Origin: an uncultured Acidimicrobiaceae bacterium
Lineage (GTDB): Bacteria; Actinomycetota; Acidimicrobiia; Acidimicrobiales; RAAP-2
DNA length: 47,237 bases
Direction: 5' to 3'
NCBI GenBank assembly: GCA_937881055.1
Contig: CALGFJ010000311.1
Coordinates: 1 to 47,237 of the forward strand
Every line of letters starts with the position of its first letter. Position 1 is the stretch's first letter. Shown piece after piece: positions 2,828 through 42,535 of the stretch. The position numbers and the translations under genes are program-made. Below the pieces are notes generated by a model. The model made no database searches and was not told the origin of the DNA. It saw nothing but the letters and a program-made list of their open reading frames with translations.

Positions 2828-3917
2828 TCGCTACCCCTTCTTTTAGAGCGACGGCCAATTTTTCGACTGCCATCTTCTGTTCTTTGTTCAGCTTCTTGGG
2901 AATCGTGACGTTGACGGTGACCAAGAGGTCGCCCGCGGCGTGCTTGCCACCGGCGGGAACGCCGCGGCCACGCACGCGCATCGTGGTCGACGGTTGCGTG
3001 CCGGCGGGGATCTTCAACGTCACTGGTTCATCGAGCGTCGGTACTTCGACGGTCGTGCCAAGCATCGCGGCCGTAAGCGCAACGTTGACGCTCGTCGTGA
3101 CGTTGCGGCCACGACGATCGAAGCGAGCGTCCGGCGACACGTGGACGTCGACGAAGAGGTCACCGGGGGGACCGCCGTGGGTCCCCGGATTGCCCTTGCC
3201 TTTCAGCTTGATGCGTTGCCCGTCATTGACGCCCGCGGGAATGCGGACGTTGACCTTTCGCGACGACGGTTCGCGGCCGGTGCCGTGACACGTCGGACAC
3301 GGCGTCACGATTCGTCCGCCGCGTCCCTGGCAGACCGGGCAGACACTGGACATCGCGAACGGTCCCTGGTCGTCATTGAGTACGCCGCGACCACCGCAGC
3401 GCTCGCAGGTGACGAATCCCGTACCGGGCGCGGCACCACTCCCCTTGCAGGTGTGGCACGCCTCGTTGCTCGGCAGGTTCACCGACGTCGTCACGCCCAC
3501 GACGGCGTCGCGAAAACCCAGGTGTAGCGCCGTTTCGAGATCAGCGCCGCGCTGTGCTCGCTGACGCCGTCCCCCACCGAACAGTCCTCCGAAGAGGTCG
3601 CCGAGGTCGCCGAAGTCGCCCGTTTGGAAGTTGAAACCGCCCGCCCCCGGACCACTCGGACCGCCCGGTCCGCCGAACCCGGCCGCGGCCGGTCCGAGAC
3701 GACGAACGTCGTCGTACTCCTTGCGTTTCTCCTTGTCGCCGAGCACGTCGTAGGCGACCGAAACCTCTTTGAACTTCTCCTCGGAGCCGGGATTGGTATC
3801 GGGGTGCGACGACTTCGCCAACTTGCGATAGGCGCGCGTGATTTCCTTCTCGGTCGCGCTCGAAGAGAGTCCTAGGACCTTGTAGTAGTCCTTGTCGAAC
3901 CACTCTCGTTCGACCAT
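2820..3917 (-). CDS. dnaJ: Chaperone DnaJ
   Basis: J domain (YYKVLGLSSSATEKEITRAYRKLAKSSHPDTNPG), G-rich region, CxxCxGxG zinc-finger repeats. Confidence 0.97.
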   Translation of the reverse strand: MVEREWFDKDYYKVLGLSSSATEKEITRAYRKLAKSSHPDTNPGSEEKFKEVSVAYDVLGDKEKRKEYDDVRRLGPAAAGFGGPGGPSGPGAGGFNFQTGDFGDLGDLFGGLFGGGRRQRAQRGADLETALHLGFRDAVVGVTTSVNLPSNEACHTCKGSGAAPGTGFVTCERCGGRGVLNDDQGPFAMSSVCPVCQGRGGRIVTPCPTCHGTGREPSSRKVNVRIPAGVNDGQRIKLKGKGNPGTHGGPPGDLFVDVHVSPDARFDRRGRNVTTSVNVALTAAMLGTTVEVPTLDEPVTLKIPAGTQPSTTMRVRGRGVPAGGKHAAGDLLVTVNVTIPKKLNKEQKMAVEKLAVALKEGVANG

Positions 3918-3921
3918 CGAG

Positions 3922-4416
3922 TCAGCCTCGAACTTTCACCATCGCAGGACGTAGAACCGAACCCTTCCAACGGTAACCGGCGCGAAGAACGTCTTCGACC
4001 ACGGGTCCCTCGTCACCTTCGACGTGTGCGACCGCGTCGTGCACTTGGGGGTTGAACTCGACACCGACGGCGTCGATGCGCTCGAGCCCCTCTTTGGCGA
4101 GGGCGTCGAGCAGGAGACCCCTCGCTTGATCCAGGGCCTCGGCCTCTTCGGACGGGGCGCTCGAAAAGTGAGCGGCCGCGAGGTCGAAGGCGTCGAGCAC
4201 GGGCAACATCTTGACGACGACTTCACCGGCTGCGCGGTCCGCGGCGTCGATTGACGAACGCGCCACGCGCTTGCGGTAGTTCTCGAAGTCGGCCTGCAGT
4301 CGTTGGAGCGCGTCCAGGTACTCGTCGCGTTCGCGTTCTACGTCAGAGCGTTCGTCAACGACCTCCGTGACGACCTCGGCCGCCACGGTGTCGTTTTCCA
4401 CTACGTCATCACTCAT
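3922..4416 (-). CDS. grpE: Nucleotide exchange factor GrpE
   Basis: LQADFENYRKRVAR ... VGVEFNPQVHDAV; position between dnaK and dnaJ. Confidence 0.95.
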   Translation of the reverse strand: MSDDVVENDTVAAEVVTEVVDERSDVERERDEYLDALQRLQADFENYRKRVARSSIDAADRAAGEVVVKMLPVLDAFDLAAAHFSSAPSEEAEALDQARGLLLDALAKEGLERIDAVGVEFNPQVHDAVAHVEGDEGPVVEDVLRAGYRWKGSVLRPAMVKVRG

Positions 4417-4418
4417 GA

Positions 4419-6230
<1,812 letters not shown>

Positions 6231-6295
6231 GAAAATCTCCTTGATTCGTTTTCTTCCTCGCCGGACCATCCGGAGGGTCAGAACTCACTACAACC

Positions 6296-6326
6296 AGTGT
6301 ACAGAGTTGAGCCTCTTCTTGTCAAG
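6296..6326 (-). promoter_or_regulatory. dnaK promoter with HAIR-like HspR element overlapping the -35
   Basis: Minus strand TTGACA-N18-TACACT (6325..6296); plus-strand GTTGAGC-N7-TGTCAAG at 6306-6326, 10/14 match to HAIR consensus CTTGAGT-N7-ACTCAAG with exact 7-nt spacing. Confidence 0.65.
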
Positions 6327-6347
6327 AAAATATATAGGTCTTATAAC
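6319..6347 (+). promoter_or_regulatory. Candidate gpmA promoter
   Basis: TTGTCA (6319-6324), 17-nt spacer, TATAAC (6342-6347), upstream of the gpmA start. Confidence 0.55.
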
Positions 6348-6434
6348 ACTTTTAGAAAGGCCAGTGATTAGAAGGCCCCCGAGCGCCTACGGACCTCTCA
6401 TTGAGTCTTCGAGCACCCGATGTACGCTGGTTCG

Positions 6435-7190
6435 GTGCCTGACCTTATTCTCGTGCGCCACGGCCAATCGGCCTGGAACGAACTGAATCTCTTCACCGGC
6501 TGGACCGACGTCGATCTCACGCCCCAGGGCGAATCCGAAGCTCAATCTGCGGGCGAACTCGTGGCCGCCGAGTCCGACCTGGACCTTCGCGTCCTGCACA
6601 CGTCGGTACTGACGAGGGCCATCCGCACCGCCGAGATCACCCTCCACGCCGCCGGCAGGTCGTGGCTCCCGGTTCGGCGCACGTGGCGACTGAACGAGCG
6701 CCACTACGGCGATCTCACGGGTAAGGACAAGAAGGAGACCGCGGAGCAGTTCGGCATCGAGCAGGTCAAGCTCTGGCGACGATCGTACGACGTTCCCCCG
6801 CCGCCCATGCCCGAAGGCGATCCCCGCAGCAGCCTCACCGACCCGCGCTATCGCGACGTGCCGGCCGAGTTCATCCCGGCGACCGAGTGTCTGAAGGACG
6901 TCGTCGCTCGGGTGACGCCGTACTTCGCCGACGTGATCGTCGAAGACCTCCGTAGCGAGGCCGTGCGCGGTGGCGCGGTCATCGTCGTCGCCCACGGCAA
7001 CTCCATTCGCGCCCTTCGCATGGTCCTCCAGAACATCCCCGAGGACGAGATCGCCGAACTCGAGATCCCGACCGGTATCCCGTACCGCGTGACGCTGGAC
7101 GACGGGCTCAACATCCTCGAGGCCGACTACCTGGGTGACCCCTCGGCCGCGGCGGCGGCGGCCGAGGCCGTCGCGCGCCAGGCCGGGTAG
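6435..7190 (+). CDS. gpmA: 2,3-bisphosphoglycerate-dependent phosphoglycerate mutase (start GTG 6435 or ATG 6420)
   Basis: LILVRHGQSAWNELNLFTGWTDVDLTPQG ... AHGNSIRALRMVL. Confidence 0.95.
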   Translation: MPDLILVRHGQSAWNELNLFTGWTDVDLTPQGESEAQSAGELVAAESDLDLRVLHTSVLTRAIRTAEITLHAAGRSWLPVRRTWRLNERHYGDLTGKDKKETAEQFGIEQVKLWRRSYDVPPPPMPEGDPRSSLTDPRYRDVPAEFIPATECLKDVVARVTPYFADVIVEDLRSEAVRGGAVIVVAHGNSIRALRMVLQNIPEDEIAELEIPTGIPYRVTLDDGLNILEADYLGDPSAAAAAAEAVARQAG

Positions 7191-7529
7191 CTACAGCGCC
7201 GAGGGACCGCGTTCGTTGGTGCGGATCCGCACCACGTGCTCGATATCGGTGACCCACGCCACGCCGTCACCAATGGTGTCGGTGCGCGCCGCTTGGACGA
7301 TCGCGTCGATCAGCGTGTCGACCAGTTCGTCCGTGCAGATGATCTCGACGCGGATCTTGTCCACGAAGTCGAACTCGTACTCCTTGCCCCGGTAGATCTC
7401 AATGTGACCCCCGGCGTGGCCGAAACCTCGAGCTTGGGTGACGGTCATGCCGGTGATGCCGACGTCCTTGACCGCGGTCTTCACCTCATCGAGCTTGAAC
7501 GGCTTGACGACTGCGGTGACTATCTTCAT
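7191..7529 (-). CDS. glnB: Nitrogen regulatory protein PII
   Basis: 112 aa; MKIVTAVVKPFKLDEVKTAV..GITGMTVTQARGFG, T-loop EIYRGKEYEFDF with Tyr retained; downstream of amt. Confidence 0.93.
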   Translation of the reverse strand: MKIVTAVVKPFKLDEVKTAVKDVGITGMTVTQARGFGHAGGHIEIYRGKEYEFDFVDKIRVEIICTDELVDTLIDAIVQAARTDTIGDGVAWVTDIEHVVRIRTNERGPSAL

Positions 7530-7538
7530 TGTCTCTCC

Positions 7539-8969
7539 TTAGACGTTGTCGGAGTGTAGGTGGCTGGGTGTATCGAGCGGCTCACCGAAGGTCGGCTCCG
7601 GATAGGCCTCTTCTTCGTGAATCGCCACGTCTCCGATGCGCAGTGTCTCTTCATCTTCACGCAGTCCTCCGAGTACCCACTTCACAAAGTAGAAGATGAT
7701 GGCGGTGGCGGTGGCGGTCCAGCAGATGATCCAGGCGGCCGCCAAGAACTGTTCCCAGAGTTGATGAAACGAATGGCCGTAGAACCACCCACTTACGGAG
7801 AACTCTCCGGACCCCTTGTAGTGCTTGCCGGCCACCCCATACTCCGTCATGTGCGGGTCCGCGAGGATTCCGACCAACAGACCACCGATGAGACCGGCGA
7901 TGCCGTGGGTGTAGACCACGCCGAGGGCGTCATCGACCTTGGAGAAGGGGCGGACCTTGGAGAGGTAGTTCCACGCGAACCACACGACGGTCGAGGAGAT
8001 CAGACCCACGAAGATCGCGCCCGTACCGTTCACGAAACCGGCGCTTGGAGTGATTGCGACGAGTCCGCAGAGCATGCCGTTGATGGCGCCGAGGAACGTG
8101 GGCTTCTTCTGCTTCGAGAGGAACATGTCCCACAGCAACCACGTGATGACTCCGACGGCCGTGGCGACGTTGGTGTTGAGCACCGCCGAGGCCGCCGAGG
8201 CTCCGGCGTAGAAGGGGTCGCCGCCGTTGAAGCCGTTCCAGCCGAGCCAGATGATGCCCGCGCCCACGGCGACCATCATCAGGTTGCTCGGGAAGGCGTT
8301 CTCACGGTCCTGCCAACGACGTGGTCCGAGGATCGCCGCACCGGTGAAGGCCGCGACGCCCGCTGAGAGGTGGATGACGTAGCCACCGGAGAAGTCGACC
8401 GCACCCTTTTGCGCGAAGAACCCACCACCCCACAAGAGCGCGGCGTTGACGCAGTAGACGCCCGTGATCCAGAGCGGCACGATCAAGAGCCACGCCTTGA
8501 ACTTGAGTCGCCCGACGAACGCCCCGACGAACAAGAGCGGCGTGATGGCCGCGAAGACGAACTGGAAGTAGGCCAGCGTCGCGGTCGGGAAGTGGAAGGG
8601 GATCAGGGTATTCGCACCCGAAACGGCCTGTCCCTGTTCCGAGCTCGCGGTCGCGAGCGGCGTGAAGTGACCGATGAACCCGCTCCAGAACGAACCCGTG
8701 GCGCCAAAGTGCGCGAGCGGGCCGAAGGCCAGGTTGTAGCCCCAGAGCATCCACACGATGAGCGTGATCGAGAAGCCCGAGAAGATCATCAACATCGTGT
8801 TGACGATCCACTTCTTTCGCACGAGTCCGCCGTAGAGGACGGCGAGACCCGGCAAGCTCATCAGACCGACCAACGTGGCGGCGGTGAGCTGCCACGTGTT
8901 GTCAGCGGGATTCAGCCAATGGGGATACGGGATGTTCACTGCTGAGAGCACGTCCACTCCTCGGGTCAC
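7539..8969 (-). CDS. amt: Ammonium transporter
   Basis: Polytopic protein with GLVRKKWIVNTMLMIFSGFSITLIVWMLWGYNLAFG, DFSGGYVIHLSAGVAAF, GAGIIWLGWNGFNGG. Confidence 0.95.
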   Translation of the reverse strand: MTRGVDVLSAVNIPYPHWLNPADNTWQLTAATLVGLMSLPGLAVLYGGLVRKKWIVNTMLMIFSGFSITLIVWMLWGYNLAFGPLAHFGATGSFWSGFIGHFTPLATASSEQGQAVSGANTLIPFHFPTATLAYFQFVFAAITPLLFVGAFVGRLKFKAWLLIVPLWITGVYCVNAALLWGGGFFAQKGAVDFSGGYVIHLSAGVAAFTGAAILGPRRWQDRENAFPSNLMMVAVGAGIIWLGWNGFNGGDPFYAGASAASAVLNTNVATAVGVITWLLWDMFLSKQKKPTFLGAINGMLCGLVAITPSAGFVNGTGAIFVGLISSTVVWFAWNYLSKVRPFSKVDDALGVVYTHGIAGLIGGLLVGILADPHMTEYGVAGKHYKGSGEFSVSGWFYGHSFHQLWEQFLAAAWIICWTATATAIIFYFVKWVLGGLREDEETLRIGDVAIHEEEAYPEPTFGEPLDTPSHLHSDNV

Positions 8970-9022
8970 TAGGAGAGGGCGACGCTGACCTCAAGTTGAT
9001 GGCACCAGTGTCCCAACCGAGG

Positions 9023-9060
9023 ATTTCGAAACCGTTAGCAACGGGTTTCGAGAGTGTTAA
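9023..9060 (-). promoter_or_regulatory. GlnR-type box upstream of amt-glnB
   Basis: Minus strand TTAAC-ACTCTC-GAAAC-CCGTTG-CTAAC-GGTTTC-GAAAT: four half-sites each separated by exactly 6 nt, as in gTnAC-n6-GaAAC-n6-GtnAC-n6-GAAAC. Confidence 0.7.
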
Positions 9061-9084
9061 CAAGGACTGCTTCTAAGGAAGCCT

Positions 9085-11256
9085 TCAGGCTTGGAGGGAG
9101 CGCTCGACGACCTGGGCGATGTCCATGACCGACACCTCTTCGTCGCGGCCATTGGCCTTCACCGCGTCATCGAGCATGATCATGCAGAACGGGCAGGCCG
9201 TGGAGATGATGTCGGCGCCAGTATTCAGCGCCTCATTCGTCCTCTCCATGTTGACGCGCTTACCGATCGTCTCTTCCATCCACATGCGAGCCCCGCCGGC
9301 GCCGCAACAAAAGCCCTTCTCGCGACAGCGTCCCATCTCGACGGTCGTCACGCCGGGGATCGCGTCGAGCACGTCGCGCGGCTCGTCGAAGACCCGGTTG
9401 TGGCGGCCCAGGTAGCACGGGTCGTGGTAGGTCACCGTGCCCTCGTAGGCCACGCCCGGCACGAGCTTGCCGGTGGCGACGAGGTGGCTCAGCAACTGCG
9501 CGTGGTGGATCATCTCAAATTCGCCACCGAGACCGGGGTATTCGTTCTTCATCGTATTGAAGCAGTGCGGGCAACTGGCGACGATCTTCTTCGCGCCGAC
9601 GTCATTGAGCGTCGCAATATTGGCCTTCGCCATCTCTTGGAAGAGATACTCGTTGCCCATGCGACGGGCCGGGTCGCCGGTGCAGGACTCGCGCGGGCCC
9701 AAGATGGCGAAACGCACCCCGGCTCGGTGCAGCATTCGCGCGGTGGACACCGCCTGCTTGCGGCCCCGCTCGTCGAGTGATCCGGCGCAGCCGACCCAGT
9801 AGAGATACTCGATGTCCTCGGGAATGGGTCCGTCGATGATCGGCACCTCGAAGTCGAGGGCGTCGAGCCACTGGGTTCGCTTGGACGCACCCAGTCCCCA
9901 CGGGTCGCCCTGATTCTCCATGTTGCGCAGTAACAGTGCCGCTTCGCTGGGGAAGCGCGACTCCATCATCACTTCGAAGCGGCGCATGTCGATGATCGCG
10001 TCGACGTGCTCGATGTCGACGGGGCACTGTTCGACGCAACTGCCGCACGTGGTGCACGACCAGAGGACGTCCGGATCGATAGTGGTCGGCACCAGCGTCG
10101 CGACGTCCGTGTTGGATCCGCCCGAAAGAAGTCGATCGGCGGAAGCGAACATGTTGTCGCGCAGCCCCATGATGAGCAACTTCGGGCTGAGCGGCTTACC
10201 GGTCGTCCAGGCCGGACAGACCGATTGACAGCGCCCGCACTCGGTGCACGTGGAGAAGTCCAGCATCTGCTTCCACGTGAAGTCCTCCATCTTGCCCGCC
10301 CCGAAGACCGTGTCCTCGGTGACGTTCTCCATGTCCATGTCGGGCGTCTTGTCCAGTCCTCCGAGGGCGCGCGGCCGACGTGAGACGCCGATGTTGATCG
10401 GCGCGAGGAAGATGTGCAGGTGCTTCGAGTACGCGACGAAGACGAGGAAACCGGCGATCACCGCGATATTGAGGAGCAGGAAGACTGCTTCGAGCACCGC
10501 GTTCACGCCCACCCCGAGCGGAGCCAGCCAACTGGCGACCACGTGGCTCGCGAAGGCCCAGGGCGATGCGAACGACGCAAAGAACTGGGCCGTCGGAGTG
10601 AAGCCGGGCGGAACCTTGGCCAGGAACGGATCCATGCGTTCGAAGGGGAAGTAGCCGGTGTTGATCTGGGCGGCGCGGTAGATCAGCAGCGTGATGATGA
10701 CCAACGAGATCATGAAGAGCACGGCCCACGCCGCACCCAAGTGGCTGCCGTAGAAGCGCGAGTCGCGTTCCTTGCGCGACGGCGCGCTCTTGATGCGGAT
10801 GATGGTGAAGACGACCAGCGAGACCAGCACGGCGGTCGCGAAGAAATCCTCGGTGAAGGCGAGCCAGCTGTCGCGTCCAATGAGCGGAATGTGGAATCGG
10901 CGGCTGAAGAGCGATCCGTAGGCCTCGAGGATCGTCGTCATCAATATGGTGAATCCCCACATCGTGAAGAAGTGCGCCAGGCCCGGTACCGTCCACTTCA
11001 GCAGTTTTCGTTGGCCGGCGACTTCGACGACCTCGGCTTCAGAGACCTTGCGAAACCCCTGCCAGCGTCGAGGCGCGCTTTGACCCGATCTGATGAGCTT
11101 CGAGAGCCAATAGAACCGTCGTCCGGCAATCGCATAGAAGATGACCGTTACCGCGAGGCCGATAATGATTCGTGCTAGCACTGCGGTCCTCTCGTCACTG
11201 AATACATCGTCACTGCTTCTTGAAGTTCTCCGAGTACCGGCTGGGCGTCGGGCCAC
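9085..11256 (-). CDS. Membrane (Fe-S)-binding heterodisulfide-reductase-like oxidoreductase (NarI-like N-terminus, 2x4Fe-4S, CCG domains)
   Basis: CTECGRCQSVCPAW, CTTCGSCVEQCPVD ferredoxin motifs; CCGAGGARMWMEE CCG domain; N-terminal TM helices. Confidence 0.88.
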   Translation of the reverse strand: MARRPAGTRRTSRSSDDVFSDERTAVLARIIIGLAVTVIFYAIAGRRFYWLSKLIRSGQSAPRRWQGFRKVSEAEVVEVAGQRKLLKWTVPGLAHFFTMWGFTILMTTILEAYGSLFSRRFHIPLIGRDSWLAFTEDFFATAVLVSLVVFTIIRIKSAPSRKERDSRFYGSHLGAAWAVLFMISLVIITLLIYRAAQINTGYFPFERMDPFLAKVPPGFTPTAQFFASFASPWAFASHVVASWLAPLGVGVNAVLEAVFLLLNIAVIAGFLVFVAYSKHLHIFLAPINIGVSRRPRALGGLDKTPDMDMENVTEDTVFGAGKMEDFTWKQMLDFSTCTECGRCQSVCPAWTTGKPLSPKLLIMGLRDNMFASADRLLSGGSNTDVATLVPTTIDPDVLWSCTTCGSCVEQCPVDIEHVDAIIDMRRFEVMMESRFPSEAALLLRNMENQGDPWGLGASKRTQWLDALDFEVPIIDGPIPEDIEYLYWVGCAGSLDERGRKQAVSTARMLHRAGVRFAILGPRESCTGDPARRMGNEYLFQEMAKANIATLNDVGAKKIVASCPHCFNTMKNEYPGLGGEFEMIHHAQLLSHLVATGKLVPGVAYEGTVTYHDPCYLGRHNRVFDEPRDVLDAIPGVTTVEMGRCREKGFCCGAGGARMWMEETIGKRVNMERTNEALNTGADIISTACPFCMIMLDDAVKANGRDEEVSVMDIAQVVERSLQA

Positions 11257-11779
11257 GCTGACCGGAGTACTTCGAGCCGAGGCCTTCAGATCCGTAGGGG
11301 CGATCGGCCGGCGTCGTCATCTGGAAGAAGCTGATCTGGCCGATCTTCATGCCCGGATAGAGCGTGATCGGCAGATTCGCGACGTTCGACAACTCCAGGG
11401 TGATGTGCCCGTCCCAGCCGGCGTCGACGAAACCGGCGGTCGAATGGATGACGAGGCCCAATCGTCCGAGCGAACTCTTTCCGTCCAGTCGTCCGACGAT
11501 GTCATCGGGGATCGCAATGCGCTCGGTCGTCGAGCCGAGCATGAACTCACCCGGGTGCAGGATCATCGGCGACTCCGGACCGACGTCAATCAACTCGGTC
11601 AGGTCCTCTTGGGCGTCGCGCACGTCAATGACGCGCTGCGTGTGGTTCCGAAACACCCGGAAGAACTGATCGATGTGGAGGTCGACCGACGACGGCTGCA
11701 CGCAGTCTTCGCCCAAGGGATCAATGATGATTCGGCCCTGCGCAATGGCTTCTTTGATGGAGCGATCGGAGAGGACCAT
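11210..11779 (-). CDS. dcd: dCTP deaminase (the ORF in the track extends artefactually to 12349)
   Basis: MVLSDRSIKEAIAQGRIIIDPLGEDCVQPSSVDLHID...GKSSLGRLGLVIHSTAGFVDAGWDGHITLELSN. Confidence 0.95.
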   Translation of the reverse strand: MVLSDRSIKEAIAQGRIIIDPLGEDCVQPSSVDLHIDQFFRVFRNHTQRVIDVRDAQEDLTELIDVGPESPMILHPGEFMLGSTTERIAIPDDIVGRLDGKSSLGRLGLVIHSTAGFVDAGWDGHITLELSNVANLPITLYPGMKIGQISFFQMTTPADRPYGSEGLGSKYSGQRGPTPSRYSENFKKQ

Positions 11780-11847
11780 AACGACGCCACGATACTCCGT
11801 TCGACCATTTCCATTGAGGTGCGAAACGGCCGTGCCGCAGAGGCCTC

Positions 11848-12708
11848 CTAGGAGAGGACCCGCCGGCGGAAGTTGCGCAATCCAACGGCCAGGAAGAACG
11901 CGCCGAAAGTGATCATCACGGGATAGACGACGTAGAGGTGCATATGGGGGGCGTCGGTGAAAGCGGCGCGCATGCCCTCGTTGACGTAGACCAGCGGATT
12001 GATGAGCACCAGCGTCTGCAACCAGTGAAAGCCGCCGATCTTCACGGGCGCCAGATGCGTCCAGGGGTAGTACGTGCCGCCGAGGAACGTGATGGGCAGG
12101 ATCACGAAGCCGAACATGAGTCCGATGTTCCGGGGTTCGAACGACGTGCCGAGGGTCAGACCGAGCCCGGCCATCGCGACGCAGGCGATGGGCACGAACG
12201 TGAGGATGATCAGCCAATGCAGCGAGATGTTCGCCTCCACCCCCGCGGCGTGCACCACTGAGGCGATCGGAAAGACGATCAGGGCGGCGATGAGGCCCTG
12301 CACCGATCCGGACAAGACCTTCGACATGGCGACGAGCCAGATCGGACACGGCGCCTGCACCCGATCTTCGATCTCACGCGTGAAACCGAACTCCTGGGAC
12401 ATCGTGAGCGCGATCGATTGGACGCCTTGGAACATCACCGAGATTCCGACAACGCCAGGAACGAGCACCGTGGCAAAATCCGCCGCACCGGTGGCGCTCG
12501 AGCCGCCGACCGCTTGGCCGATCTTGGGGAAGACGAAGAGGAACACGAAGCACAGGAGGAACGGTTGGACCAGGGTCCGTAACACGAACTCGCGCTTGGT
12601 CTTCCACAGCACCACGAGGTCGCGCAGAATCAAAGCCCCCAGGGCCGTGCGGCTGGCTTCGAAGACGCTGCGAGTTGGATGCACCTCAAATGTCGTGTTC
12701 GCACTCAT
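11848..12708 (-). CDS. ABC-2 type transporter permease (DrrB-like); ORF 11848..13269 is over-extended
   Basis: Starts MSANTTFEVHPTRSVF; polytopic ABC-2 membrane domain; ATG overlaps the TGA of the upstream ATPase gene. Confidence 0.88.
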   Translation of the reverse strand: MSANTTFEVHPTRSVFEASRTALGALILRDLVVLWKTKREFVLRTLVQPFLLCFVFLFVFPKIGQAVGGSSATGAADFATVLVPGVVGISVMFQGVQSIALTMSQEFGFTREIEDRVQAPCPIWLVAMSKVLSGSVQGLIAALIVFPIASVVHAAGVEANISLHWLIILTFVPIACVAMAGLGLTLGTSFEPRNIGLMFGFVILPITFLGGTYYPWTHLAPVKIGGFHWLQTLVLINPLVYVNEGMRAAFTDAPHMHLYVVYPVMITFGAFFLAVGLRNFRRRVLS

Positions 12709-13667
12709 GCCTCGCGCAACTCCTTGCCGGTCAGGTTGATGAATACCGTTTCGAGGGTCGGCTCGGCCACCGCGAGATCGAGAATCTCGACGTTCGACGT
12801 CTCGGCCGACGCCACGATTCGGGGAACCAGTCGCTCGGTACTCCTCATTTCGACGATGAGTGAATTCTCCTGCACGCGCGTCGACACGATGGCGTCGATG
12901 TCGCGCTTCAGACTTTGCGCCAATTGGTCCGGACTCGCCGCGACCTTGATCGTGACGATGGTGTCGGCTCCGGTGCTCTTCTTGAGATTCGATGGCGTGT
13001 CGAGCGCGAGGATCTTCCCGTGATCCATGATCGCCACCCGACCGCAGAGTTGATCGGCCTCTTCCATGTAGTGCGTCGTCAACATGACGGTCTGTCCCGC
13101 ACCGTTGAGTTCGGTCAGCATGTCCCAGAGCGCGAGACGACTCTGGGGATCGAGCCCCGCCGTCGGTTCGTCCATGAAGAGCACGGCCGGGTTGTGGAAG
13201 ATCGCGCGAGCCACCATGAGTCGCTGCGCCATACCACCCGAGAGTGCGTAAATCGATGCCTTCGACCACTTCGAGAGCGAGAAGCGCTCGAGCAGTTCGT
13301 CCGACCTGCGCCGCGAGTCCTTGGCGTTGATGCCGAACAAGCGCCCGTGGAAATAGAGATTCTCCCAGACGGTGAGCTGTCGATCCAGCGTGTTCTGTTG
13401 CGAGACTATTCCCGAGAGCTGTTTCACGAGAGCGGGATGTTTCTTCACGTCGATGCCCGAGAGGTACGCCGTACCCGACGTGGGCACGACTCGCGTGGTC
13501 AAGATGCCGGCGGTCGTGGTCTTGCCCGCGCCGTTCGGTCCCAGGAGTCCGAAGATCTCGCCACGATGAACCTCGAGGTTGAGTGAATCGACGGCGGGAA
13601 CGTCCATCGTCGGATACTGCTTCGTTAGATTCTCCGTACGAATGATCTCTTCGACGTCAGCGGCCAC
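12705..13667 (-). CDS. Daunorubicin/drug-type ABC transporter ATP-binding protein (DrrA-like)
   Basis: GLLGPNGAGKTTTAGIL Walker A, LSGGMAQRLMVARA signature, VLFMDEPTAGLDP Walker B. Confidence 0.93.
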   Translation of the reverse strand: MAADVEEIIRTENLTKQYPTMDVPAVDSLNLEVHRGEIFGLLGPNGAGKTTTAGILTTRVVPTSGTAYLSGIDVKKHPALVKQLSGIVSQQNTLDRQLTVWENLYFHGRLFGINAKDSRRRSDELLERFSLSKWSKASIYALSGGMAQRLMVARAIFHNPAVLFMDEPTAGLDPQSRLALWDMLTELNGAGQTVMLTTHYMEEADQLCGRVAIMDHGKILALDTPSNLKKSTGADTIVTIKVAASPDQLAQSLKRDIDAIVSTRVQENSLIVEMRSTERLVPRIVASAETSNVEILDLAVAEPTLETVFINLTGKELREA

Positions 13668-13857
13668 TGATCTCTCCGTCTTCGCCGAGCGTCGTCACGG
13701 ATGTACCTTACGGCGAGTCCGCGGCGCAGACTCAGTGTGGCGACTCTGTTGAGGTGGTACTAACACCCCACGATGGTGTGCGGTCAACTTTCTGGCAATC
13801 GGCAAGAGCAACGCCGAAGATGGATCGTCGTCGACCGCGAGGGGATTCGGGCCACTG

Positions 13858-16404
13858 ATGAACAATCAAACGTACGAGTTCGCGTGGTACCGATTCCGCG
13901 CGACCTTCGCACGTCGTTTGACGGCGTACTTAAGTGTGGTCTTGCTGATCGGCCTGACCGGTGGTCTTGCCATGGCTTCGGTCGCGGCCGCGCGACGTAC
14001 GCAGTCCTCCTACCCCACGTTTCTCGCAAGCACGAATCCTTCGACTTTGACGTTGGCCGTCTTCGGTGCCTCAAACGGCGGGAAGGGCACAGCGTCCCTC
14101 GTCCCGAAGATTGCTCGACTAAAGGACGTTGCGAACGTTCGCGCACTCGCTTCCGGCGACGCGGTTCTTCTGAGCCGCTCTGGTGCTCCTCTTCTGAGCA
14201 CGATCAATAGCGTCGTCCTCGGCGGAAGCCTCGACGGCTACCTCGCCCAAGAGGATCGACTTTCGCTAGTGCGGGGACATTTCTCCAATCCGAAGAGTCT
14301 CAACCAGATCGAAGTGACGCCGGGTGCGGCACGCATCTGGAACGTCCACCCGGGCCAAAGGGTTCCCATCGGTTTCTACGCACCGAGTCAAGCGAGACTG
14401 CCGGGATTCGGCACCCCGAAAGTCAAACCAATGTTGACGGTGCACGCAACGGTTACCGCCGTCGTGGCGATGAACAGTGCGATCGTTCAAGATGACGTAG
14501 ACCGGTCCTACGGGTTCGCGTTCTTAACGCCTGCCATGACCAAACGAGCCGCGTCGATCGATCCCGATTGGACCATGCCGGTCTACTACGCGATTCAGTT
14601 GCGCCACGGCGACCGCGGTCTCGCTAAAGTTCAAGCACAATTGGTGCGACTCATTCCTTCGCATGATTCGTATGAGTTTCATAACTCTTCGAGCGTCACG
14701 GCAACGGTCGAACTGGCGGTGAAGCCCGAGTCGGTCGCACTGGGTGCGTTTGGCATAATTGCCGCCCTCGTGTGTCTGACTCTCTCGGTCCAGGCGCTCT
14801 CGCGACTGTTGCGACGTGGCAACGAGGAGCGCAGCATCCTTCATTCGCTCGGGGCGAGCCAAACGGACACCTTCGTTGAGAGCATGATCGGTGCATTCGT
14901 GGTCTTGGTCGTTGGCGTCTCACTGGCGGTCATCATCGCCGTGGCGCTCTCACCGCTCGCACCACTCGGACCGGTGCGTCCCGTGTATCCCGACCGCGGC
15001 ATCGCGTGGGATTGGACCGTGCTCGGTTTGGGAGCGGTAATTCTTCTCGGAGTGCTCGGAAGTTCAACAATTCTCATCGCGCTCGCGAACTCGCCGCAGC
15101 GCATCAGATCGGCCCAGTCCGTCCGATTCAGACGCTCGGCGACCGTTCGCCGACTCGAACTCTTCGGTCTCCCGCTCGCTCCGACCATCGGAGCGCACTT
15201 CGCCCTCGAATCGCCGCGCGGGCGAAGCGAGGTGCCCGTTCGATCGATCCTCGTCGGCGCGGTGCTCGCGGTGACGTTGATGACTACGACACTTACGTTC
15301 TCGAGCGGACTTCACTCTCTGATCACCCGTCCTGCCCTCTACGGCTGGAACTGGAACTACATGCTCAATCCGAGCAATAACGTGCCGCCCATCGCATTGC
15401 GCGAATTGAACCATGATCCCGACGTCGCACAGTGGAGCGGTACAAACTATAACGTCGTGACGGTGGACGGACAGACCGTCCCGATGTTGTTTGGTCCTCT
15501 TCGCGCCAAGGTCGTGCCCCCAATCTTGTCGGGACACGGTCTGCGTAATGACCACGAGATAGTCCTCGGCGACCAAACCCTGGCCTTATTGCACAAACAC
15601 GTAGGCGAGACTGTCTCAGTCAGTTACGGTTCCCCTTCGAGTGCACCGATCTATATTCCGCCCACCAAACTGACGATCGTGGGCACGGCGACGTTTCCCG
15701 CCGTGGGCTACGCCACCGCCATTGCCGAACACACCTCAATGGGTACCGGCGCACTCCTCCCGGAGGGATTCGCCCCGCGCACGTTCTCTCAGGCAATCGC
15801 GAGCAAGGATCCGATTCTCAACGGTCCCGAACTGGTCTTCGTGCGACTGCGCTCCGGCGTGAGCGCGGCGGCCGGCAAGCGCAATCTCGAAAAGATCGCG
15901 CACGACGCGAACGTCGCCTTCAACAAAGATCAGAACGCCTTCGGCAACTACGTTACGGTCCTCGGCGTGCAGCGACCGGCGCAGATCGTCGACTACCGCT
16001 CGATCGGGGCTACACCCGTGTTACTGGCGACCGGCCTCGCCGCTGGCGCCGTGATCGCGTTAGCCCTCACCCTGGCCGCGTCGGTGCGACGGCGACGGCG
16101 CGACCTCGCCATCATGAAAACGCTCGGATTCACAAAACGGATGCTCGCCGCCGCGGTGACGTGGCAGGCGACGGTCGATGGCCTCATCGGCGCGGTTATT
16201 GGCATACCCCTTGGAATCCTCTTAGGCCGAGAACTTTGGACGCTCTTCGCTCGTGACATCAACGCCGTGCCCCAGCCCACGGTTCCCGCAACCGCCATTG
16301 TCATCGTGGGATTCGGTACTCTCGTGGTCGCGATCATGGCTGCGTTGTGGCCCGGTCGACGTGCCGCGTCCACCCCACCGGGACTCGTATTGCGATCCGA
16401 ATAA
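13858..16404 (+). CDS. FtsX-like (MacB-type) ABC transporter permease, 848 aa
   Basis: N-terminal TM, large extracytoplasmic domains, duplicated FtsX domains (AAGAVIALALTLAASVRRRRRDLAIMKTLGFTKRMLAAAVTWQATVDGLIGAVIGIPLGI). Confidence 0.88.
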   Translation: MNNQTYEFAWYRFRATFARRLTAYLSVVLLIGLTGGLAMASVAAARRTQSSYPTFLASTNPSTLTLAVFGASNGGKGTASLVPKIARLKDVANVRALASGDAVLLSRSGAPLLSTINSVVLGGSLDGYLAQEDRLSLVRGHFSNPKSLNQIEVTPGAARIWNVHPGQRVPIGFYAPSQARLPGFGTPKVKPMLTVHATVTAVVAMNSAIVQDDVDRSYGFAFLTPAMTKRAASIDPDWTMPVYYAIQLRHGDRGLAKVQAQLVRLIPSHDSYEFHNSSSVTATVELAVKPESVALGAFGIIAALVCLTLSVQALSRLLRRGNEERSILHSLGASQTDTFVESMIGAFVVLVVGVSLAVIIAVALSPLAPLGPVRPVYPDRGIAWDWTVLGLGAVILLGVLGSSTILIALANSPQRIRSAQSVRFRRSATVRRLELFGLPLAPTIGAHFALESPRGRSEVPVRSILVGAVLAVTLMTTTLTFSSGLHSLITRPALYGWNWNYMLNPSNNVPPIALRELNHDPDVAQWSGTNYNVVTVDGQTVPMLFGPLRAKVVPPILSGHGLRNDHEIVLGDQTLALLHKHVGETVSVSYGSPSSAPIYIPPTKLTIVGTATFPAVGYATAIAEHTSMGTGALLPEGFAPRTFSQAIASKDPILNGPELVFVRLRSGVSAAAGKRNLEKIAHDANVAFNKDQNAFGNYVTVLGVQRPAQIVDYRSIGATPVLLATGLAAGAVIALALTLAASVRRRRRDLAIMKTLGFTKRMLAAAVTWQATVDGLIGAVIGIPLGILLGRELWTLFARDINAVPQPTVPATAIVIVGFGTLVVAIMAALWPGRRAASTPPGLVLRSE

Positions 16405-16440
16405 AGCGACCGACGCGGAGCGTCACGACGGTGGTCCCGA

Positions 16441-17886
16441 TCACGACGAGCGAGTTCGACCCCGCAGATCAGCCACTACCGTGCGTGCGGCCCCGTACCC
16501 GCACATTCCGTGCACGCCACCGCCCGGCGGCGTCGACGCCGAGCACAGGTAGAGCCCCGGCGTCCCGGTGCGGTACGAATTCCAACGAGCCGTTGGGCGA
16601 AAGAGGGTCTGTCGCAGCGTGCCGGCGCCCCCGGTGATGTCGCCACCCAGGTAGTTCGGGTTGTGACGTTCTCCGTCGGCCGTCGAGGTTACGACGCGTT
16701 GGAGGATCAGATCACGAAAGCCCGGAGCGAATCGCTCGATCTGGCTCTCGATGCGCTCGGTCATGTCAACGTCGGATCCATTCGGAACGTGACAGTACGC
16801 CCACAACGTCTGCTGGCCCTTTGGCGCTCGAGTGTCGTCCACTACGCTCGCCTGGACGACGATGCAAAAGGGCGTGTCCGAGTGACGACCCTGCGCGACG
16901 TCCTTTTCCGACGCCGCGACCTCGTCGAACGCGCCGCCTACGTGGACCGTCCCCGCGCGACGACACGCTTCCGCGGTCCACGGCACAGGACCGGAGAGGG
17001 CCCAGTCGACCTTGAACACGCCCGGGCCTCGCTGAAAGCGCGCAACGCCGGACTTGTAGCGCGCGCTGAGCCGTTCACCGGCGATGTCGACGAGGCCGTG
17101 CGCCGAAGTGTCAAAGAGCGTTGCCCGAGACCTAGGGAGATCACCGAGTTGGCGGATGGGCCGATCCACGTGAAGCGTCACGCCCTCAGCGCTCAGCGCC
17201 GTCACGAGCGCGTCGATCAGTTTCGCGCTGCCGCCTTCCACGACGGGCCAGCCACCCTCGTGGGCGGTCACGTTCAAGAAGAGCCCGAAGGCCGCCGTGA
17301 CCGGTGCGTCGAGCGGCAGCATCGAGTGCGAGCACAGTCCCGCGATTAGCGCTTGGGCTTCGGATGTCGTGAATCGCTTCGCCAAGTGTGTGGCGCTCGG
17401 CAGTCCGTTGCGTGCGAAACGCGCCATCGTCAGCGGATGACGCGGTGGTGACCGAAGTGGGGCGAGGACCGAGGCGGCCAGAGCCTCGGCGTCGTCCACT
17501 AACGGAGAGAACAGGCGTCGGTACTTCGCCGCGTCGGCGCCGAGTGACGTCGCGGTCTGCGCCACCGACCCCTCGACGGCGACGGCTTGTCCGCCGTCGA
17601 GCGGGTGGGCCAGCGCGACGTCCGGTCGCAACATCGTCACCGCGTCACACAAGTCGGCGAACGCGCGAAAGAAAGGTGAAATCGTCACCATGGATTGGAT
17701 CGTCGAGCAGACGTCGTGCTGGAAACCCGGCAGGGTCAGTTCCTCGGTGCGACAACCGCCGCCCGGACTCGCCGCTCCTTCGAAGACCTCAACCGAGAGT
17801 CCGGCTCGCGCGAGGGTCAACGCCGCCGCCAGTCCGTTTGGTCCCGACCCGACGACGACGGCGTCCAGCGACGACCCTGAGCTCAC
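16441..17886 (-). CDS. Phytoene-desaturase-like FAD-dependent oxidoreductase (COG1233-type)
   Basis: Rossmann dinucleotide motif VVVGSGPNGLAAALTLARAGLSVEVFEGAASPGGGCRT; C-terminal GLYLCSASTPPGGGVHGMCGYGAARTV. Confidence 0.88.
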   Translation of the reverse strand: MSSGSSLDAVVVGSGPNGLAAALTLARAGLSVEVFEGAASPGGGCRTEELTLPGFQHDVCSTIQSMVTISPFFRAFADLCDAVTMLRPDVALAHPLDGGQAVAVEGSVAQTATSLGADAAKYRRLFSPLVDDAEALAASVLAPLRSPPRHPLTMARFARNGLPSATHLAKRFTTSEAQALIAGLCSHSMLPLDAPVTAAFGLFLNVTAHEGGWPVVEGGSAKLIDALVTALSAEGVTLHVDRPIRQLGDLPRSRATLFDTSAHGLVDIAGERLSARYKSGVARFQRGPGVFKVDWALSGPVPWTAEACRRAGTVHVGGAFDEVAASEKDVAQGRHSDTPFCIVVQASVVDDTRAPKGQQTLWAYCHVPNGSDVDMTERIESQIERFAPGFRDLILQRVVTSTADGERHNPNYLGGDITGGAGTLRQTLFRPTARWNSYRTGTPGLYLCSASTPPGGGVHGMCGYGAARTVVADLRGRTRSS

Positions 17887-36127: not shown

Positions 36128-37068
36128 CAGTTGATCTCAAACAACTTGGTGCGCCACACGAGCAACGTGGCACCGACCAGTCCAAGGACGAGGAGCGTGA
36201 CCGAGATCGCTGCAGCCTCGTTGAAATTGTCATTAATGAACGCGATGTAGTACGCGAGCTGATTCGGTGACCACGTATTACTGACTAAGCCCGCCGTTGC
36301 CTGACCGACGAGTTGCGGCTCTACAAATAGCTGCGTGCCACCAGCAAAGGACAGTATGAGCATGTAGACAACCCACTTCTTGATCAGCGGCAATTTGATC
36401 CTCAATGCGGATTGGAAGGCATTCGCTCCGTCAAGTTTGGCCGCCTCGAGAAGTTCGTCCGGAATGTTGTTCAACGCGCCATACATCACGACGATCCAAC
36501 CGCCAGCGCCGGTCCAAAAAGCCATAATCGCAAAGATCAACGGCAGGTGAGATGGCTGGAGAACCAGGTCAATTTGGGCGTACCCAAGAATTGAGAGCAG
36601 AAAGTGCCACGGACTGAGAGTGGGGTCCAACATGAAGAGCCACACGAGCACGCTCGCGGCGCCAGCCAACGCCCCAGGCATATAGAACAAAAAGCGGAAC
36701 GCGGCGCTGGTTCGCCGGGCCAGCGAATGAAGCATCAGCGCCAGCACCAGGATGAGCGTCGCTTCCGCGATCAACCAAATCGCGAGATATTCAGCGACAT
36801 GTTCAAAAGCGGGAAGGAAGCGGAAGTCTTGAAATGCGCGCGTGAAGTTCGATCCCCACGCGATTCCGCCTCCCACCTTTGTCAATGACAAGTAGATCGC
36901 GTACGCAGTTGGGGCGATTCCAAACAATGCAAGGAGCACCACGTACAGACTGACGAAGACGTAGCCAGATAACCGCGAACTACCTATTGGTGCCCCATCC
37001 TCGGAGCGACCACCCCGGCGAGCGCGTGAACGCTCGCCGGGGATAGCCGCAACAGGGGGAACGGTCAT
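36127..37068 (-). CDS. Carbohydrate ABC transporter permease (MalF-like)
   Basis: EAA loop NIPDELLEAAKLDGANAFQSALRIKLPLIKKW; adjacent to SBP and MalG. Confidence 0.92.
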   Translation of the reverse strand: MTVPPVAAIPGERSRARRGGRSEDGAPIGSSRLSGYVFVSLYVVLLALFGIAPTAYAIYLSLTKVGGGIAWGSNFTRAFQDFRFLPAFEHVAEYLAIWLIAEATLILVLALMLHSLARRTSAAFRFLFYMPGALAGAASVLVWLFMLDPTLSPWHFLLSILGYAQIDLVLQPSHLPLIFAIMAFWTGAGGWIVVMYGALNNIPDELLEAAKLDGANAFQSALRIKLPLIKKWVVYMLILSFAGGTQLFVEPQLVGQATAGLVSNTWSPNQLAYYIAFINDNFNEAAAISVTLLVLGLVGATLLVWRTKLFEIN

Positions 37069-39802: not shown

Positions 39803-39823
39803 ATAAGACGACTGTCGTATGAT
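39803..39823. promoter_or_regulatory. Pseudo-palindromic candidate operator between dehydratase and GntR genes
   Basis: ATAAGACGAC-T-GTCGTATGAT, 8 of 10 arm positions complementary, in a divergent promoter region. Confidence 0.4.
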
Positions 39824-40023
39824 AACATCGAGATTGTGGAGGCGCAAGAGCGGGTCGCCTTAATGCAATTTCGGGGAGGTCAAGGTGAATGGCATTGAGT
39901 CAAGTGCAGATTCCTCGTCGATAAGAACGTTGAGTCCCGCGTGACACCATCGCCAGCCCTGTCCCACCTTGTCATTGGTGACGTTGACCGAATTGTTCTC
40001 GGTTCGAACACAACGAGCGAATT

Positions 40024-40827
40024 ATGCTGAAAACTGTTGATACACCTGCTTCGGATGAAGGGCGTCAAGAAGTGAGTACTCCGCTCTCCCTTCCAGCGCG
40101 CCCAGCTCGCCTCAATCACATCGTCGTCTCATCATTGATAGACGAAGTTGTGTCCGGAAACCTGTCGGTGGGATCATCTCTCCCTCCAGAACAGATACTG
40201 TGCGAGGACTTCAAGGTCAGCCGTTCGGTCGTCCGAGAATCGGTGAAAATACTCGAAGAGAAAGGTCTGGTTGTGGCTCGCCAGGGTCAGGGGACAACGG
40301 TCCAGCCGGTTGACCTTTGGAATCTACTTGACCCGCTCGTACTCGACGCCTATATCCGCAATGACCGAAGTCTTTCCATTTTCGACGATCTTATGGAGGT
40401 TCGTGCGGCCCTAGAAAGTCAGATGGCTAGCCGAGCGGCGACGAGTTTGAGCCCAGATCAGTTGGAAGAATTACACGTGCGCTTGATGGAACTCGAGTCA
40501 CTTCTCGAAGACCCGCCTGGTTATACCGCAGCTGATATTGCCTACCACGACTTGATCGCTGGATTCTCGGGCCACTTACTGGCTCGCTCGATCTTAAGGA
40601 CAGTGCAACCTGTCGCCCTCGCGAACGCCTACTACGGTCGTACCCATAGATCGCGTGAGGACAATCTGCGCTCTCATGACGGTCACGCGACGATCTACGA
40701 AGCGTTGGCGAAGCGCGATCCAGTCGCGGCCGCCAGTGCCGTAGAGGATCACATACTTGGCTCATGGGAGACCTACAAGAGGTCGCTCTATGAGTCAAAG
40801 TCGAGTACTGGTCAAAATGAGAGTTAG
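40024..40827 (+). CDS. FadR-subfamily (FCD) GntR transcriptional regulator
   Basis: wHTH LIDEVVSGNLSVGSSLPPEQILCEDFKVSRSVVRESVKILEEKGLVVARQGQGTTV; FCD region DLMEVRAALESQMASRAA. Confidence 0.92.
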   Translation: MLKTVDTPASDEGRQEVSTPLSLPARPARLNHIVVSSLIDEVVSGNLSVGSSLPPEQILCEDFKVSRSVVRESVKILEEKGLVVARQGQGTTVQPVDLWNLLDPLVLDAYIRNDRSLSIFDDLMEVRAALESQMASRAATSLSPDQLEELHVRLMELESLLEDPPGYTAADIAYHDLIAGFSGHLLARSILRTVQPVALANAYYGRTHRSREDNLRSHDGHATIYEALAKRDPVAAASAVEDHILGSWETYKRSLYESKSSTGQNES

Positions 40828-40899
40828 GAACTTAAATCGTTAGGAGACGAACATCGTCGCTCGAGGCTCTGTCTCCTCTCAGGCAGAGTTGGCGACCAA

Positions 40900-40984
40900 C
40901 CAAGACCGCTTAAACCGATACGTGAGTTGGACAGTGGTTCCCAACCCCCTCGTCCAACTCACGTGTCGGTTTAAGCGGTCTTGG
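40900..40984. repeat. Near-perfect 33-bp inverted repeat with 19-nt loop
   Basis: CCAAGACCGCTTAAACCGATACGTGAGTTGGAC / GTCCAACTCACGTGTCGGTTTAAGCGGTCTTGG; 32/33 Watson-Crick plus one G-U. Confidence 0.95.
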
Positions 40985-41180
40985 CGGCGAAATAACCATC
41001 GGCAATCGACTCCTGAGATAGTCCTGGTGACAGGACGATCTCACTGACACTCGAGTCAACGCCCGACAATCATATGCTCCCGGAGGCCGCCGCGCCGATT
41101 GATCAACTCGAATTCGCGCCAGCGGTTTCGGTTTCGTGGAGCATGCGGAAAAGGTTGGATCAACAAGAGGAGGCGGACTT

Positions 41181-41495
41181 ATGGGGAAATCTATCGCGTT
41201 GCGAACCTGGCTCAGACCAGGAATGGAAATGGCGTACGAGAAGGCCCACGCGGAGGTGTGGCCTGAACTCGTGGCCGTGCAACGAGACCTAGGCATTGAG
41301 CACTGGCTCATATTTCGCCACGGTGTCGAGCTCTTCCACGTCGTCGAATGCGACGACTTCGATCGAGCCATCGCCGCCCTAACAGAGCACTCGATCGATC
41401 AACGATGGCAGGCCGAGATGGCGCGCTACGTCGTGGTGGCTGACGATGGCAAGGGTGCGGCGGTCGACCGACTGCGTCTTGTCTACGGCCGATGA
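41181..41495 (+). CDS. L-rhamnose/L-fucose mutarotase family (DUF718/RhaM-like)
   Basis: RTWLRPGMEMAYEKAHAEVWPELVAVQRDLGIEHWLIFRHGVELFHVVECDDFDRA; AGGAGG upstream of ATG 41181. Confidence 0.85.
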   Translation: MGKSIALRTWLRPGMEMAYEKAHAEVWPELVAVQRDLGIEHWLIFRHGVELFHVVECDDFDRAIAALTEHSIDQRWQAEMARYVVVADDGKGAAVDRLRLVYGR

Positions 41496-42535
41496 ACTGT
41501 GACTCCGCGAGACCTTCGCCGGTCTCCGCCGACAATATGAATACCCTCGCAACGCGGCCCTTCTTGAAGCGCCCCATTCGACTGACTGAAATATCGCTGG
41601 GCTGCGCACAACTCGGGAACCTCTATCGAGCTATCACCGATGATCAGGCCCGCGCCACAGTCGATGCCGCTTGGGAGCAGGGTGTGCGCTACTTCGACAC
41701 TGCGCCCCATTACGGACTCGGGCTCTCCGAGCGTCGCCTTGGCGCTGCGCTTGCGGGTCGGCCTCGCGACGAGTACGTCCTTTCAACGAAAGTTGGTCGA
41801 CTCCTTGAGCCCACGAGCCACCGAGGGGAACGCGACGATGAGGGCTTCGACGTTCCAGCAACCCATCGACGCGTTTGGGATTTCAGTCGTGACGGCGTCA
41901 TCCGGTCCCTCGAAGCAAGCCTCGAGCGACTCGGTGTGGACGCCGTTGACATCGTGTTTCTCCACGACCCCGACGAGCATCGACGCGAAGCCCTTGACAC
42001 CGCCTACCCCGCACTTGAGGAACTGCGCGCGCAGGGCATCATCTCGGCGATCGGCGCGGGAATGAACCAAACAGGGATGCTGGCCGACTTCGCTCGCCAA
42101 ACCGACATGGACATCTTGATGCTCGCCGGACGCTACACCCTCCTCGAGCAATCAGCCCTCGACGAACTATTGCCAAGCTGCGAAGCGCGTCGAATCGGGA
42201 TCGTCGCCGCGGGCGTATTCAACAGCGGTCTGCTCTCGCGCTCCACACCAGGAGATGGAGCGAAGTACAACTACGGCGACGCCCCCGTGAAGCTCATTGA
42301 GCGCGCGCGACGCATCGCGAAAATCTGCGCACTGCACAACACATCGCTCCCGGCGGTCGCTCTGGCATTTCCATTGACACACCCCAGCGTCGTTAGCGTC
42401 TGTGTTGGCTCGCGCTCGCCAGAACAAATCAAGGCCAACGTTGATTTATTCCGTTCGGGTGTGCCTGACTCCGTGTGGGTTCAGCTGAAGGAGGAGGGAT
42501 TTTTGCGACGGGACGCTCCGGTACCCACTAACTAA
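41492..42535 (+). CDS. Aldo/keto reductase (D-threo-aldose 1-dehydrogenase / L-fucose dehydrogenase-like)
   Basis: GVRYFDTAPHYGLGLSERRLGAALAGRPRDEYVLSTKVGRLL; ATGA overlap with mutarotase. Confidence 0.83.
   Translation: MNCDSARPSPVSADNMNTLATRPFLKRPIRLTEISLGCAQLGNLYRAITDDQARATVDAAWEQGVRYFDTAPHYGLGLSERRLGAALAGRPRDEYVLSTKVGRLLEPTSHRGERDDEGFDVPATHRRVWDFSRDGVIRSLEASLERLGVDAVDIVFLHDPDEHRREALDTAYPALEELRAQGIISAIGAGMNQTGMLADFARQTDMDILMLAGRYTLLEQSALDELLPSCEARRIGIVAAGVFNSGLLSRSTPGDGAKYNYGDAPVKLIERARRIAKICALHNTSLPAVALAFPLTHPSVVSVCVGSRSPEQIKANVDLFRSGVPDSVWVQLKEEGFLRRDAPVPTN

Follow-up and report, generated by a model that had tools for sequence, protein, structure and literature searches.

The window analyzed here is a stretch of 47,237 nucleotides from an uncultured Acidimicrobiaceae bacterium, whose high-GC genome of 2.29 Mb (341 contigs) contains rho as well as four WhiB genes, which mark it as actinobacterial. 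The neighborhood under study is a sugar catabolic cluster that includes a binding-protein-like gene (assigned by position and sequence, with no Pfam hit), permeases, an ATPase, an enolase-superfamily dehydratase, dehydrogenases, and an amidohydrolase, as well as xylulokinase, xylose isomerase, and a ROK gene. On the plus strand, gntR (40024..40827) encodes an FCD-type GntR regulator of 267 aa (Pfam GntR, 2.5e-16; FCD, 3.4e-21). It is followed by a gene for a rhaM-like mutarotase of 104 aa (41181..41495; Pfam rhaM, 1.6e-19), whose likely ATG, picked from the sequence, lies behind AGGAGG, and by an aldo/keto reductase gene (41492..42535; Pfam Aldo_ket_red, 2.2e-51), which overlaps the rhaM stop codon; the latter two genes probably form one transcription unit. 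An earlier note on this DNA had given the gene context correctly as a GntR regulator and a mutarotase gene, the mutarotase being of the rhamnose type. The aldo/keto reductase gene (plus strand) and the xylulokinase gene (minus strand) converge with a 4-bp overlap (42532-42535), which leaves no terminator space between them. A minus-strand reading frame at 41371-40910 covers the 5' part of rhaM and was considered a shadow ORF, not a gene.

The gntR stop codon (40827) and the likely start of rhaM (41181) are separated by 353 nt, and this spacer contains a long hairpin at 40900-40984, which begins 72 nt past the stop codon and ends 196 nt before the rhaM start. Downstream of it on the same strand lie another hairpin, an ordinary one whose loop is GTGA (GAGATAGTCCTG GTGA CAGGACGATCTC; 41016..41043), read from the sequence and present in the whole-spacer fold, and a weak promoter-like site, CTGACA-18-AATCAT (41044..41073). 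The rhaM transcript could start at this site, which as a consensus match is no better than chance (one found, 1.0 expected in shuffles).

Structure and stability of the inverted repeat

The long hairpin consists of a left arm (40900..40932) and a right arm (40952..40984), each of 33 nt and given on the plus strand, around a 19-nt loop, AGTGGTTCCCAACCCCCTC (40933..40951); the right arm is followed by CGGCGAAATAAC, and no T-run flanks the stem on either side. The arms are 97% complementary and form 33 pairs, 32 of them Watson-Crick; the sole exception, T40919/G40965, is a U-G pair in plus-strand RNA and an A/C mismatch on the minus strand. These results reproduce the near-perfect 33-bp inverted repeat with a 19-nt loop that the earlier note had described, including its coordinates, its pairing (given there as 32/33 plus one G-U), and the lack of a flanking U-tract.

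The inverted repeat is real and far above chance: in a 47-kb window of the same composition, ~5.5e-11 occurrences are expected of 33-nt arms with no more than one mismatch within 200 nt. The plus-strand RNA has a minimum free energy of -71.1 kcal/mol, while its shuffles average -30 (z -12.1), and the minus-strand RNA also folds well beyond its shuffles (z -10.0). By a wide margin, 40900-40984 is the best inverted repeat of the window, and it is the longest near-perfect hairpin in the sampled sequence. The lone G-U pair, which had been read as a hint of selection for RNA pairing, is no evidence of such selection, since whenever a lone transition alters one of the two arms of a palindrome, one strand shows a G-U and the opposite strand an A/C; the chance of meeting G-U on whichever strand is read is ~1/3 to 1/2 without selection.

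Copies and relatives

DNA similarity searches and pattern searches allowing 3 mismatches found the hairpin as a single copy in its own genome, where one partial match with 3 mismatches, in C81, has no comparable long hairpin. In a 148-genome set of relatives, no genome but its own contains the hairpin, and a search of the 98 other genus members with the whole gntR-rhaM spacer returned no match. When genome and viral collections were scanned for exact 16/17-mers, 56 scattered matches turned up in unrelated organisms, none with an inverted partner within 200 nt; these were taken as chance matches. A 25-nt match to the loop in genome G006 was set aside, there being no such hairpin at that site. 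Among 297 genomes, only G059 has a close rhaM homologue with an adjacent gntR. Its spacer measures 342 nt vs 353 nt here, the two align poorly, and the G059 spacer lacks a long hairpin, its fold being no more stable than those of shuffles (z -0.2).

The hairpin is thus lineage-specific, and the searches gave no sign of a mobile family. The earlier note had offered a MITE or IS remnant and proposed looking for copies in this and related genomes and for a target-site duplication. Near-perfect inverted arms within a spacer do recall MITEs and other palindromic repeats; unlike these, however, the hairpin has one copy in its genome and none in relatives. No direct repeat of 2-12 nt adjoins the arms (GGCGA lies near both sides, at 40891-40895 and 40986-40990, but does not adjoin them), and the nearby genes scanned include no transposase or other mobile-element gene. 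The similar spacer length in G059 also speaks against an insertion, although only weakly because the spacers align so poorly. Overall, we regard a MITE or IS remnant as highly improbable. Rfam yielded no match for the hairpin, and no homologue, such as covarying pairs would require, was found in the genus or in further relatives. Neither a mobile-palindrome family nor a conserved RNA is supported, given the single copy, the absence from relatives, the lack of a target-site duplication or mobile-element gene, and the hairpin-free spacer of G059. A leader RNA or attenuator of rhaM seems scarcely probable: the fold of the spacer as a whole is much more stable than those of its shuffles (z -10), and the GTGA-loop hairpin follows the long one, as a leader might have it, but the excess stability is attributable largely to the long hairpin, and neither the G059 fold, nor Rfam, nor the spacers of the 98 congeners offer a counterpart.

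A role at the level of DNA, as a GntR operator or another cruciform or protein-binding palindrome, would suit the two-fold symmetry of the hairpin and its position beside a GntR-family gene; nevertheless, 66 paired bases around a 19-nt spacer are unlike a GntR operator, and the arm sequence recurs in the window no more than in shuffled controls. A better operator candidate is a palindrome upstream of gntR (39809..39834; core TCGTATGATAACAT at 39815-39828), which is conserved upstream of genus orthologues and is likely to be the GntR operator. Exact copies of the core lie near six gntR orthologues (loci L089-L094), and G059 has a copy with one mismatch, while 0.28 Mb of background contained no hits with 0-2 mismatches; the conserved palindrome around it is also found at L084 1598-1625. 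In several gntR orthologues, a further half-site, CATATCACAACATTCGTATGATAACATATGAAT, precedes the palindrome. The hairpin does not contain the TCGTATGATAACAT motif and was rejected as the GntR operator, and a DNA-level site of any of these kinds is very unlikely.

Hairpins at gene ends in the genome and genus

Hairpins scoring 11 or more were counted in ~0.33 Mb of this genome, made up of the window and ~0.28 Mb of samples, and in three congeners (0.59 Mb), using crude gene calls (longest ORFs), which add noise. In this genome, 8 hairpins lie 0-50 nt after stop codons, where the other bins average 1.3 (Poisson 6e-5); across the four genomes of the genus, the corresponding numbers are 19 and 4.7 (Poisson 6e-7). 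The 10-nt tails of these gene-end hairpins hold on average 2.5 T in this genome and 2.0-2.8 in the others. A stem lacking a U-tract near a gene end is therefore the local norm, as the hairpins peak just past stop codons with tails that are not clearly T-rich. The hairpin studied here, 72 nt past its stop codon, falls outside the 0-50 nt peak. The earlier note had held the missing U-tract against a terminator; this objection is not strong, for the post-stop hairpins of this genome mostly lack T-rich tails, so that the absence is no anomaly here, and U-poor ends are known in Streptomyces clavuligerus (PMC8269248).

Other long hairpins without a U-tract occur at L103 (23-nt arms, placed 31 nt past a stop), L131 (23-nt arms), and L120 (28-nt arms). 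The L103 hairpin separates two very large tandem ORFs of 1621 and 2806 aa (3291-16892), which are secreted-protein-like and contain both repeated domains and linkers rich in glycine. At L101, a perfect 20-pair hairpin with a 14-nt loop (10169-10222) directly follows a sugar-binding-protein gene, at the start of an ATPase gene in the same operon; it possibly stabilizes the mRNA.

These distributions also bear on whether the hairpin has a selected role at all. It may be a neutral by-product, either an inverted duplication that arose recently by a template switch at a small palindrome or the one-off remnant of a palindromic element: it occurs once and turned up in none of the other genomes searched, its near-perfect arms are as expected of a young duplication, and G059 manages without it. 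The concentration of hairpins just after stop codons in this genome, near the place of this one, speaks against such an origin, as does the tendency of bacterial spacers to lose useless long palindromes, and we consider it unlikely.

The hairpin as the probable 3' end of gntR

In our assessment, the hairpin is probably a 3'-end signal of the gntR transcript that lacks a U-tract, acting as a terminator or as a stable end behind Rho termination, and it would separate gntR from rhaM. We infer a terminating or RNA-protecting role, its direction, and a separate promoter for rhaM downstream. Once polymerase has passed the gntR stop codon, the RNA would fold into the 33-pair stem, which could halt polymerase with no need of a U-tract, a mechanism put forward for I-shaped terminators in high-GC actinobacteria; alternatively, the stem could be the stable end that remains after Rho-dependent termination and 3' trimming. 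Either event would keep gntR expression apart from that of the rhaM-aldo/keto reductase genes. Given its near symmetry, the stem could in addition block antisense transcripts that come from the convergent xylulokinase and xylose isomerase genes. This reading is supported by the position in the spacer, 72 nt past the stop codon, by the stable fold on both strands, by the peak of mostly U-tract-free hairpins past stop codons in this genome and genus, and by the presence of rho. Counting against it, the stem has roughly double the length found in most intrinsic terminators, the loop is above the usual optimum, and the distance of 72 nt places the hairpin beyond that peak; moreover, a terminator this strong is not needed at a gntR-rhaM junction, since G059 has the same gene pair without such a hairpin.

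The mRNA could also be read through from gntR into rhaM, with the stem serving as a processing or stabilizing hairpin (an RNase III cut or a 3' exonuclease block) that gives unequal gntR and rhaM levels without termination. The two genes are co-directional, and hairpins occur inside operons of this genome, long ones such as that at the L101 sugar-binding-protein/ATPase junction (20/20 pairs) as well as one of 12 pairs between the binding-protein and permease genes of the window (37013-37042). REP-type hairpins that stabilize intercistronic mRNA occur behind binding-protein genes such as malE, and the present hairpin resembles them as an extended hairpin between co-directional genes of sugar catabolism; it differs from them in its lack of repetition, its long spacer, and its place behind a regulator gene instead of one for a binding protein. 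A gap of 353 nt is indeed long for the inside of an operon, and the weak promoter-like site and the Shine-Dalgarno sequence downstream of the hairpin also disfavor read-through processing, which we hold to be possible but improbable.

The 3'-end reading has its closest parallels in the U-less (I-shaped) terminators and U-poor ends of high-GC actinobacteria, which the hairpin resembles in following a stop codon shortly, in lacking a U-tract, and in its great stability. Mycobacterial polymerase was reported by Czyz et al. in 2014 to need a U-tract in vitro. I-shaped terminators have been described in mycobacteria (PMC12288462), a U-trail was not required in a 13-genome analysis (PMC8355165), and in term-seq of Streptomyces clavuligerus, U-poor transcript ends with a high degree of structure stand apart as a separate class, long stems and bidirectional use also being described there (PMC8269248). 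Whether such ends terminate transcription unaided in Streptomyces and mycobacteria is disputed (PMC8355165, PMC12288462, PMC8269248). The hairpin differs from a canonical (L-shaped) intrinsic terminator in having no U-tract after its stem, and from typical I-shaped terminators in its 33-nt stem, its 19-nt loop, and its distance of 72 nt from the stop codon, its own part in termination being presumptive; a typical intrinsic terminator has a stem of 4-14 bp and a loop of ~5-10 and lies within 50 nt of the stop (PMC8355165), although such ranges are customary and do not strictly define the class. A bolder proposal would have the very long, symmetric hairpin block transcription in both directions, so that gntR would neither read through into rhaM nor be exposed to antisense transcripts coming from the convergent xylAB genes, with stem length replacing the U-tract in this lineage; we view this as rather doubtful.

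Most likely, the hairpin simply marks where the gntR mRNA ends, in the way of shorter ones of its kind at other places in the genome, and only its length is remarkable. If it terminates transcription, it would be an extreme natural case for the disputed question of whether a stem alone can stop actinobacterial RNA polymerase without a U-tract; otherwise, it would be an ordinary gene-end hairpin, unusual in length only.
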